Shown here: one piece after another, positions 28,338 to 62,089 of the stretch
Position numbering within the stretch: position 1 is the stretch's first letter
Layout: each line of letters opens with the position of its first letter
Source of the DNA: Clostridia bacterium
Lineage (GTDB): Bacteria; Bacillota; Clostridia; Oscillospirales; CAG-272
Direction of reading: 5' to 3'
Assembly (NCBI GenBank): GCA_017481495.1
Contig: JAFUPC010000016.1
Coordinates: forward strand, 1 to 64,000
DNA length: 64,000 nt
Position numbers and translations under genes: made by a program
Notes under the pieces: model-generated
Seen by the model: only the letters and a program-made list of their open reading frames with translations
Told to the model about the DNA's origin: nothing
Databases searched by the model: none

Positions 28338-28366
28338 TTGACAGATATGCGGAAATGTGTTATAAT
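28338..28366 (+). promoter_or_regulatory. Promoter of the lipoprotein at 28403
   Basis: Consensus TTGACA (28338-28343) and TATAAT (28361-28366) with a 17-base spacer. Confidence 0.8.
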
Positions 28367-29278: not shown

Positions 29279-30595
29279 TTACGGCGTCAGCCGTTTCACA
29301 TCCCGCGGGAACAGGGAAGCGTGCCGCACATTGTCAAAGCCGCACAGGCACGCGCAGAGCCGTTCCAGTCCCACACCGAAGCCGCCGTGCGGCGGAAGTC
29401 CGTTTTTATGTGCGGACAGATAGTCCGAAAACGCATCGGGGTCGATGCCGCATCGCCGCATTTTGGCGACCTGTTCGTGAAAATTGTGGATGCGTAAGCC
29501 CCCGGTCGTGATCTCCATGCCGCGGAACAATAAGTCAAAGCTCTCGGTGACAAGCGGGTTTTCTGCGTTTTCTTTTGCGTAAAAGGGGCGCTTGACCGTC
29601 GGGTATTCTGTGACAAAGACAAAATCGGAGTGCCAGACCTTATGTGCATGGGCGCACAGCGCTTTTTCCTCCGCCGGGGAGAGGTCGTTTTCCTCGCCGG
29701 GGGTGCCGTTTTCCGCAAGAATCGCTTTGGCATCGGCAAACGGGATCGCCGGAATTTCGCGTGTGTCCGGAAGTGTAATGCCGAGAAGCTGCATGGAAGC
29801 GGCGGCGTGTTCCGCCGAATAAGCGAGCGCATGGGTGAGCATTGCGCACTCGATTTCCATCAGCTCCCGCACGTCGGTGACAAATCCGACCTCGCAGTCG
29901 ATGCCGGTGTATTCGTTCAGATGGCGCGCGGTGTCGTGCGGTTCTGCGCGGAAAACGGGGCCGATTTCGTAGACACGCCCGAACACGCCGGTCATCATCT
30001 GTTTGTAAAGCTGTGGGGAGGTGGCGAGAAATGCATCCCGTCCGAAATAGTCCACGGGGAACACGCCCGCGCCGGATTCCGCAGTCCCGGCACAGATCTT
30101 CGGTGTGTGAATTGCGACAAAGCTGTTTTGCGAGAAAAATTCCGCGCACCCCTCGGAAAGTGCCGCCTGAATACGGAACACCGCGCGCGTTTCTTCCCGC
30201 CGCAGAGCAAAGGGACGATGGGAAAGGTCGGTTTCCATCGGCAGTCCGTTTCTGCCGTTGATGACGACGGGCGCCGGTTCCGCCGGAGCGGACAGGACGG
30301 TGAGTGAAACCAAATGCACCTCAAAGCCGCCGCGGACGCGCGCATCTTCCTTGACAACGCCGGTAACGGTCACAGCGGACTGCTCGCGGAGGGGGTGCAG
30401 GGATTCCCCCGGAAACGCAGACGTATCGGGTGACCAGACACACTGGATGAGCGTTTCACCCGTCTGCAAAAGAAGAAACGCAAAGCCGGACATCCGGCGG
30501 ATTTTATAGATCATCCCGGAGACGGTGACGGTTCTGCCGCTGTCAGCCGGCGTGGGAAGTGGTTGTATGTGGGGATTTTGTGTGATATGATTCAT
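29279..30595 (-). CDS. Archaeal-type aspartyl-tRNA synthetase (possibly non-discriminating Asp/Asn)
   Basis: The protein has 438 residues. An N-terminal OB-fold anticodon-binding domain (about 20-105) is followed directly by a class II catalytic core without the bacterial GAD insertion, the compact archaeal AspRS layout. Motif 2 is VFRAEPHDTARHLNEYTGIDCEVGF and motif 3 GGFGVGLERL. Such enzymes often charge both tRNA-Asp and tRNA-Asn for later amidation. A full-length bacterial AspS is also encoded at 50466, so the genome has two. A leader peptide with three Asp codons upstream supports aspartate as the sensed amino acid. ATG 30595 follows AAAGGAAT. Confidence 0.82.
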   Translation of the reverse strand: MNHITQNPHIQPLPTPADSGRTVTVSGMIYKIRRMSGFAFLLLQTGETLIQCVWSPDTSAFPGESLHPLREQSAVTVTGVVKEDARVRGGFEVHLVSLTVLSAPAEPAPVVINGRNGLPMETDLSHRPFALRREETRAVFRIQAALSEGCAEFFSQNSFVAIHTPKICAGTAESGAGVFPVDYFGRDAFLATSPQLYKQMMTGVFGRVYEIGPVFRAEPHDTARHLNEYTGIDCEVGFVTDVRELMEIECAMLTHALAYSAEHAAASMQLLGITLPDTREIPAIPFADAKAILAENGTPGEENDLSPAEEKALCAHAHKVWHSDFVFVTEYPTVKRPFYAKENAENPLVTESFDLLFRGMEITTGGLRIHNFHEQVAKMRRCGIDPDAFSDYLSAHKNGLPPHGGFGVGLERLCACLCGFDNVRHASLFPRDVKRLTP

Positions 30596-30702
30596 ATTCG
30601 GATTCCTTTCGTGTTGTAAAAAATAGCGGATACGAAAAGAATCCGTCACGACCGGCGAGATCACAGCGCCGCATGGGATCACCCTCTTTCAATGAAATTA
30701 CG

Positions 30703-30805
30703 AAAAACAAAAACCGCGCCCCCCCGGAGCACGACGAAAAGCGTCTGTACTCTCATAGGGGAACGCGGCAGAAACTGCTTTGTTCTCGTCAGATGCACAG
30801 ACGCC
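30703..30805 (-). promoter_or_regulatory. Transcription attenuator of the archaeal-type AspRS gene
   Basis: On the minus strand an 11-base-pair terminator stem is formed by CCGCGTTCCCC (30758-30768) and GGGGGGCGCGG (30714-30724), followed by TTTTTG and a second T run to 30703. A competing long-range helix is possible between GCGTCTGT inside the leader-peptide gene (30797-30804) and ACAGACGC in the terminator loop (30741-30748). With two wobble pairs and an extra C-G it reaches 11 pairs (30795-30805 with 30740-30750). That is the layout of ribosome-controlled attenuation. The pairing is read by eye, not folded. Confidence 0.65.
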
Positions 30806-30848
30806 GGATATCATCGTCACAAAGGGAACGCAAGGTCGCGGGCGTCAT
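30789..30848 (-). CDS. Asp-rich leader peptide of the AspRS attenuator
   Basis: This 19-residue peptide reads MTPATLRSLCDDDIRRLCI, with CAGGAG 10 bases before the ATG. Three consecutive Asp codons (GAC GAT GAT, 30810-30818) sit just before the segment able to form the alternative helix. If charged tRNA-Asp runs short, a ribosome paused there would leave 30797-30804 free to pair downstream and disfavour the terminator. When it reads on to the stop at 30789-30791 it would cover that segment and let the terminator form. The logic is that of amino-acid biosynthetic leaders such as trp and his; its use here is my inference. Confidence 0.7.
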   Translation of the reverse strand: MTPATLRSLCDDDIRRLCI

Positions 30849-30882
30849 GGTATTTTTCTCCTGTTGGAATTGGAATACGGAT

Positions 30883-30911
30883 ATTATAGCACACTCTGCT
30901 TGGAATGTCAA
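30883..30911 (-). promoter_or_regulatory. Promoter of the attenuated AspRS transcript
   Basis: Perfect consensus on the minus strand: TTGACA (30906-30911) and TATAAT (30883-30888) with a 17-base spacer, about 35 bases before the leader-peptide ATG. A promoter this strong suits control by attenuation. Confidence 0.85.
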
Positions 30912-61735: not shown

Positions 61736-62089
61736 TGTTAAAACACAGTGAAATGGAGCAGTAAACAAAAGGCTTCCCACACAGAGAGGTGTCGGTCGGT
61801 GCAAGACACGGAGGGAAAGGTTTGTTGAACTCACCATGGAGTGGCTGCAATAAAATCCGGGGTCTGACTTCGGAAAGTAAATGCAGACGGGTGCTCCCGT
61901 GACAGGGCAAGGGTGTTGGGCACCCCGAGCGCATCCAATTGGGATGGCATCCGGAACGGAAAATTTTCGTCGGATCTCATCCGGGATGAAAAAGAGTGGT
62001 ACCGCGGAAGCGAAAATCGAATTTTTCAGTGCTTTCGTCTCTTTGTTATCAAACGTATGGATAACAGAGGACGGAAAGCGCTGTTTTTT
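61736..62089 (+). promoter_or_regulatory. T-box leader, probably leucine-specific
   Basis: The T-box sequence AGTGGTACCGCGG lies at 61995-62007. In stem I, AACAAA (61764-61769) pairs with TTTGTT (61821-61826); AGTA at 61760-61763 faces GAA-CTC-A, placing the specifier codon CTC (Leu) at 61830-61832. A strong terminator follows: CAGTGCTTTCGTC (62027-62039) with GACGGAAAGCGCTG (62070-62083), then six T residues. Uncharged tRNA-Leu would bind and favour the antiterminator, inducing ilvB when leucine is scarce. The specifier is read from alignment by eye. Confidence 0.88.

Follow-up and report, generated by a model that had tools for sequence, protein, structure and literature searches.

A predicted leader-peptide attenuator with conserved Asp codons upstream of an auxiliary archaeal-type aspartyl-tRNA synthetase gene in Clostridia

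The aspS2 gene and its genomic setting

The window, the whole 64,000-nucleotide stretch of DNA that was analyzed, belongs to a 3.2-Mb Clostridia genome, a metagenome assembly with a completeness of 86%; many of the loci compared with it are likewise from metagenome assemblies. The gene on which this study is centered is:

29279 to 30595, minus strand: aspS2, archaeal-type aspartate--tRNA ligase, 438 amino acids (NCBIfam NF003483)

The reading frame of aspS2 is open from its start at position 30595, and the deduced protein scores 483 bits against the NCBIfam model NF003483 ('aspartate--tRNA(Asn) ligase'; cut-off 353), which bears out the archaeal-type AspRS that a first-pass annotation of this DNA had recognized downstream of the leader. 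Since a standard bacterial aspS gene is also present within the window (52274-50466), we regard AspRS2 as an auxiliary (spare) enzyme. This auxiliary status, like the longer terminator, the second leader ORF with its Shine-Dalgarno helix and the Arg-type leaders on argS genes that are described below, had no place in the first-pass annotation. A bacterial AspRS is likewise encoded in 46 of the 48 leader-bearing genomes, and a bacterial-type enzyme is found in 29 of the 30 genomes whose aspS2 orthologues fall outside the leader clade; the notion that only leader-bearing aspS2 genes are auxiliary was therefore rejected, and the spare status of the enzyme is general and not tied to the leader. 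No close relative of aspS2 was found in eight other genomes of the same genus.

Two minor features lie elsewhere in the window. On the plus strand at 28338-28366, another promoter that matches the consensus at 12 of 12 positions (TTGACA-17-TATAAT, with TG) is situated early inside an ORF listed from 28286; the true start of this ORF is therefore probably farther downstream. The only T-box of the window, an ordinary one that scores above the gathering score (61739-62045, plus strand), lies 5' of an ORF for an acetolactate synthase (ilvB-like).

Organization of the leader

From 5' to 3' on the minus strand, the leader consists of a promoter, a ribosome-binding site, a first short ORF (sORF1), a terminator with its U tract, and a second short ORF (sORF2) that precedes aspS2. 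The elements up to the terminator are:

30883 to 30911, minus strand: putative sigma-A promoter TTGACA-17-TATAAT with TG before the -10 region; 12/12 consensus positions, predicted from the sequence
30789 to 30848, minus strand: leader ORF 1 (sORF1), 19 codons, MTPATLRSLCDDDIRRLCI; ribosome-binding site AGGAG 9 nt upstream; the Asp-run ORF is conserved
30810 to 30818, minus strand: putative regulatory codons GAC GAT GAT (Asp-Asp-Asp); Asp run kept in 63 leaders
30795 to 30805, minus strand: P1 segment 1, GGCGUCUGUGC; starts 13 nt 3' of the first base of the Asp run
30740 to 30750, minus strand: P1 segment 2, GUACAGACGCU; from folds and from P1 covariation in alignment A2
30713 to 30769, minus strand: terminator hairpin GCCGCGUUCCCC...GGGGGGCGCGGU, 57 nt, -36.8 kcal/mol; encloses P2 (GAGUAC:GUGCUC)
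30703 to 30713, minus strand: terminator U tract; from the sequence and a terminator scan

Most of the parts named in the first-pass annotation are present as described: the perfect promoter at 30911-30883, the 19-residue peptide with its DDD run encoded between the ATG at 30848 and the stop codon that ends at 30789, and the alternative helix of 11 pairs, which is identical with P1 (30805-30795 with 30750-30740). The 11-bp terminator with a T run stood in part, as a terminator and a U tract are indeed found, but the most stable form is the 57-nt hairpin at 30769-30713. This hairpin is far more stable than the short stem of 10-11 bp, which was therefore rejected as the main terminator; with the short stem in that role, the predicted sign of the response would come out reversed.

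No T-box was detected in the window leader, either at the gathering score or at E<=10, and no Rfam family matched the leader above its gathering score, whether in the window or in 14 orthologous loci. Searched against the 3.2-Mb genome of the window, a covariance model of the leader built without the window (R1) gave the window leader as its top match (18.2 bits, E=0.016), a weak match when compared with the scores of about 34-141 bits reached elsewhere.

Conservation of the Asp run and its register

A one-genome-per-species search with an alignment of three orthologues recovered 80 loci, to which order-level searches added more, and the putative leader switch is conserved in about 65 Clostridia relatives of aspS2. 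A short ORF precedes most Lachnospiraceae and several Oscillospirales-type orthologues, and its peptide closes with a motif such as LNRDDD(R/I/L). In all 63 recovered leaders, codons 1 and 3 of the run specify Asp; the middle codon specifies Asp in 57 of them, Asn in four, and Glu and Met in one each. Counted from the first Asp codon, RNA segment 1 ([A/G]GC[G/A]..) starts at +13 in 63 of 63 leaders, with the register of one leader that carries an extra codon (L116) taken from its second Asp codon. The stop codon of sORF1 is found at +9, +12, +21, +27, +33 or +36. What stays constant is how far segment 1 lies from the Asp run, and not how long the peptide is. A chance occurrence of the DDD run in the window is ruled out by the orthologues, in which the Asp run, the register and the helices recur.

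The features by which ribosome-mediated transcription attenuators of the trp/his/pheST kind are recognized occur together in this leader: a short ORF with its ribosome-binding site between the promoter and the structural gene, a conserved run of codons cognate to the synthetase encoded downstream, a fixed spacing between the regulatory codons and the putatively ribosome-controlled helix, and an intrinsic terminator with mutually exclusive helices that show covariation (P1, P2 and P4; weak for P3).

Mutually exclusive helices

In an alignment of 33 leaders, mostly from Lachnospiraceae (A2), the region 3' of the Asp codons contains four helices: P1 (segments 1:2), P2 (2:3), P3 (3:4) and the terminator P4 (4:5). 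Because neighboring helices share a strand, P1 excludes P2, P2 excludes P3, and P3 excludes P4. For P1 and P4 together, 20 pairs exhibit double changes and 90.5% of the cells are paired, values that none of 500 shuffles equaled; slid controls gave 30-49% pairing. P2 is paired in 97.5% of the cells, with 23 double-change cells and again no equal among 500 shuffles. The antiterminator P3 is paired in 85% of the cells, with little covariation and one mostly mismatched position, and is, as judged from this alignment, the weakest link of the predicted chain. The comparison of orthologous leaders that the first-pass annotation had called for hence yielded conserved Asp codons and covarying P1, P2 and terminator stems, and its reading as an Asp-sensing attenuator is supported by same-clade orthologues that keep both the Asp run and the paired helices, in addition to the lack of a T-box in the window leader.

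The window copy has P1 in the common register and no separate P3/P4 pair. Here, the 5' arm of the terminator lies inside the loop of P1, with P2 at the center of the hairpin, and folding with the competing helices, also recommended by the annotation, showed that the 11-bp P1 and the 57-nt terminator hairpin exclude each other. As P3 is absent, P1 must act directly on the terminator in this copy, and in these folds it would itself serve as the antiterminator.

Arg-type leaders on auxiliary argS genes

When 20 of the genomes under comparison were searched with R1, leaders located 5' of argS were also found (L160, L162, L164, L165, L167, L168, L170). Their leader peptides carry Arg runs (MTSLVLSNLRRRDRRKLL, MTALIIINLRRRNRRRLL, MNHYFTNQIRRRYRYLLV, MSQLFSLSIRRRR and others; for example, SLRRRERRKLL and SIRRRR), with the first Arg run upstream of P1 and the stop codon inside P1. 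The genomes in question possess two ArgRS genes, only one of which bears the leader. Folds of L162, L168 and L170 exhibit the same alternation between stall and stop states as those of the Asp leaders; L165, the row of which was misplaced in this comparison, was left out. The putative Arg leaders on auxiliary argS genes repeat the design independently, with a different amino acid and the synthetase that handles it.

Other leaders with a similar appearance were noticed as well. In three Eisenbergiella-type genomes, a Met-rich leader peptide (for example, MDKKMTKTADFMMPAVMSMNFRCL) with a similar terminator (L158, L159, L161; about 180-395 of the oriented locus) is located some way 5' of a gene for a GNAT acetyltransferase. 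L163 and L174 have a leader peptide and a similar attenuator 5' of an operon for an ABC-2 type exporter, perhaps an antibiotic-sensing attenuator.

Stall and stop states and the proposed mechanism

The leaders were folded as RNA outside the ribosome, before the 3' arm of the terminator emerges. For P2, a probability of 0.01 was predicted when the edge of the ribosome stood at the Asp stall, as opposed to 0.70 when the ribosome was at the stop codon, and the value was higher at the stop than at the stall in 56 of 61 leaders, although any competing upstream sequence is partly expected to lower this probability. When segment 1 was shuffled in the stalled state, the predicted P2 probability was 0.65, which argues against generic competition as the whole reason for the modeled decrease. 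In 46 of 63 leaders, stalling increased the sequestration of the 5' arm of the terminator, and in two it decreased it. Taken together, the P2 probabilities and the sequestration of the terminator 5' arm indicate that stalling should favor read-through. In the folds of the window copy, P1 forms first with the ribosome on the Asp codons (-27.9 kcal/mol before the 3' arm emerges), and the terminator forms with the ribosome at the stop codon (-37.3 kcal/mol); the response of this copy is thus predicted to have the sign that is predicted for the relatives. Full-length equilibrium folds favor the terminator in most states, and the switch must hence be kinetic and decided during transcription. It should be noted that in leaders whose stop lies at +9, a stall on the third Asp codon and the stop position differ by only 3 nt.

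In our view, the leader is very probably a ribosome-mediated transcription attenuator that senses the charging of tRNA-Asp and controls the auxiliary AspRS. Toeprint studies have established that a ribosome protects about 12-13 nt downstream of the codon in its A site. From this geometry and from the folds, we infer the positions of the ribosome and the direction of the response as follows. When Asp-tRNA is short, the ribosome translating sORF1 would stall with an Asp codon in its A site, and its front edge, about 12-13 nt ahead, would end just short of segment 1, so that P1 could form. P1 would then block the helix that leads to termination, which is P2 in the relatives and the P2-containing terminator itself in the window, and RNA polymerase would read through into aspS. 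When Asp-tRNA is plentiful, the ribosome would reach the stop codon, in or just after segment 1, and would cover this segment; P1 would not form and the terminator would. In the relatives, the signal would pass along a chain of five segments in which P1 excludes P2, P2 excludes P3, and the antiterminator P3 excludes the terminator P4. The proposed placement differs from trp-type logic: there, a stalled ribosome lies on segment 1, but in the present leaders it would halt just before this segment, and the one that has finished would lie over it. The benefit would presumably consist in a rescue when the main AspRS or the supply of aspartate fails.

The opposite sign of the response has to be weighed against this proposal. 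A ribosome stalled on Asp might cover segment 1, so that P1 would not form, the terminator would win, and a shortage of Asp-tRNA would turn aspS off. The Asp codons do lie immediately 5' of segment 1, part of which would be covered if the footprint were wider or if the ribosome stalled on the third codon. Nevertheless, we consider the opposite sign improbable: the start of segment 1 at +13 in every one of the 63 leaders corresponds to the expected front edge of a stalled ribosome, a ribosome at the stop codon would in every case lie on segment 1 or beyond it, and the Arg leaders, too, have their first Arg run 5' of P1 and their stop within it. Moreover, there is no obvious use in switching a synthetase off when its product is short.

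A second leader ORF next to the aspS ribosome-binding site

In 62 loci, the interval between the terminator and aspS contains an extended Shine-Dalgarno sequence (about AAGGNNGTGAT) and a short ORF. The corresponding elements of the window are:

30543 to 30674, minus strand: leader ORF 2 (sORF2), MRRCDLAGRDGFFSYP..., with extended Shine-Dalgarno sequence AGAGGGTGATC; conserved in 62 loci
30653 to 30671, minus strand: hairpin inside sORF2 (CGGCG...CGCCG), from covariation
30632 to 30645, minus strand: 5' strand of the predicted SD-sequestering helix, CGGAUUCUUUUCGU, located at the Asp-10 codon of sORF2 and immediately beyond it (MFE fold)
30599 to 30612, minus strand: 3' strand of the predicted SD-sequestering helix, ACGAAAGGAAUCCG, which contains the aspS Shine-Dalgarno sequence (MFE fold)

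The sORF2 of the window has Asp at codons 5 and 10 and overlaps the start of aspS; these two codons are GAY in every row of an alignment of this region (A3). Codons 2-3 pair with codons 6-8 in a hairpin of 6 bp with a 7-nt loop (NNNGAYN), for which compensatory double changes occur in five of the six pairs and 94.7% of the cells are paired (0 of 500 shuffles). A mimic of the tRNA-Asp anticodon loop was considered for this hairpin and is not supported, as the loop has GAY at positions 4-6 and not GUC at positions 3-5. The SD-sequestering helix of the window comprises 14 bp (-21.3 kcal/mol), and none of 200 shuffles was as stable. Among the relatives, the codons that follow the hairpin are often complementary to the aspS Shine-Dalgarno region (p<=0.05 in 24 of the 62 loci, with three expected; z<0 in 51 of 62), a count in which related species are not independent. 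One orthologue (L054) has lost sORF2 through a stop immediately after the start codon.

Translational attenuators of the ermC type consist of a translated leader ORF adjoining a helix that hides the downstream ribosome-binding site, and a helix of this kind overlaps or adjoins sORF2. The read-through message would carry sORF2, whose Asp codons and hairpin adjoin the helix that would hide the aspS ribosome-binding site; we infer that stalling at Asp codons 5 or 10 may open this helix, and sORF2 would then probably add a further control step, at the level of translation, that responds to the same amino acid.

The conserved elements of the leader could also be read as an RNA structure that is bound by a protein, for instance by AspRS itself, with the Asp codons incidental to the RNA motif. 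The conservation of GACGACGAU even at synonymous positions in most Lachnospiraceae (A2) and the covarying sORF2 hairpin with its NNNGAYN loop would be in keeping with such an element. It is, nevertheless, very improbable given how the leaders vary, since codon changes at positions 1 and 3 stay within the Asp codons GAC and GAT, the codon between them is replaced by those for Asn, Glu or Met, the stop codon moves among six positions with no change in the register, and the sister class exchanges Asp for Arg along with the downstream gene.

Relation to known systems

Firmicutes are usually thought of as T-box organisms. Ribosome-mediated attenuation, with a leader peptide in which the cognate amino acid is abundant, controls the synthetase genes pheST of E. 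coli and trpRS1 of Streptomyces coelicolor, the latter of which encodes an auxiliary, inhibitor-resistant enzyme; these systems differ from the aspS2 leader in amino acid and phylum. The T-box (RF00230) resembles the leader in that it controls orthologous aspS2 genes in a sister clade, and differs from it in that its RNA senses the tRNA directly. According to a T-box survey (PMC2494555), some Firmicutes with more than one copy of aspS or argS have a T-box on one of these copies.

The closest precedent is a prediction by Naville and Gautheret in 2010 (PMC2965389), which proposes His leader peptides 5' of hisS* and hisZ in Bacillus and states that T-boxes can be swapped for leader peptides. Like the aspS2 leader, these systems combine a predicted peptide with cognate codons and a premature terminator in front of a paralogous synthetase gene of Firmicutes; unlike it, they concern histidine and Bacilli, and neither a system for Asp or Arg nor a second leader ORF was found in the passages of that article that were searched. 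It holds the only printed Firmicutes leader-peptide attenuator on a synthetase gene that we found. Tandem attenuators with two leader ORFs in one leader are described in a study of Salmonella mgtCBR (PMC3641672). In comparison with this system and with ermC, sORF2 is distinguished by its invariant Asp codons and by its location after a transcription attenuator for the same amino acid, a comparison in which the function of sORF2 is the putative one outlined above. A prediction for aspS of Shewanella (PMC2659441) is termed only a tRNA synthetase leader. In the open-access literature, no Asp or Arg leader peptide of this type was found in Clostridia; the Asp and Arg versions hence appear to be undescribed, with ribosome-mediated attenuation itself already known.

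The predicted leaders add to Firmicutes a widely conserved Asp system and an Arg sister system, together with a case in which a T-box and a leader peptide serve orthologous genes in sister clades. Given that aspS2 is auxiliary, the switch would directly predict when the cell deploys its spare synthetase, and the leader is a candidate reporter for a shortage of aspartyl-tRNA or an inhibition of AspRS. On a broader view, which we judge to have an even chance of being correct, the locus is under Asp-specific two-stage control, with sORF1 as a transcription attenuator (stall just before segment 1) followed by sORF2 as a translational attenuator, and belongs to a wider Clostridia set of leader-peptide attenuators on auxiliary AspRS and ArgRS genes that would deploy the spare enzyme upon starvation or inhibition of the main one and might serve as a means of resistance to synthetase inhibitors.

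Evolution of the leader and its relation to T-boxes

The tree built from 106 AspRS2 proteins places the leader-bearing genes in one supported clade that includes the window gene, the branch of which is long. One member of this clade labeled 'leader' in the tree (L038) lacks sORF1 on inspection; in L055 and L088, sORF1 is seemingly missing only because the contigs end close upstream. The sister groups have T-boxes or neither device. Among the loci tested, T-boxes were detected 5' of eight aspS2 orthologues (L013, L124, L128, L129, L130, L133, L134, L136) with E values from 1e-16 to 3e-5, below the Rfam gathering score but clear, and these orthologues belong to one family of the same order.

That the window copy is a horizontally acquired gene with a decayed leader that no longer switches, as its low model score (18 bits versus about 34-141 elsewhere), its missing P3, its long branch and the eight same-genus genomes without a close aspS2 relative might suggest, is the least probable of the alternatives, since the promoter, the ribosome-binding site, the Asp run, the exact register, the 11-bp P1, the strong P1-excluding terminator, sORF2 with Asp at codons 5 and 10, the 14-bp SD helix and the open aspS frame are all intact.

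Among the relatives, the aspS2 gene of one genome (G047; L027, 1501-2760) is split by frameshifts and represents either a pseudogene or assembly errors; its leader (MSVFFSHKDNDI) and sORF2 look intact.
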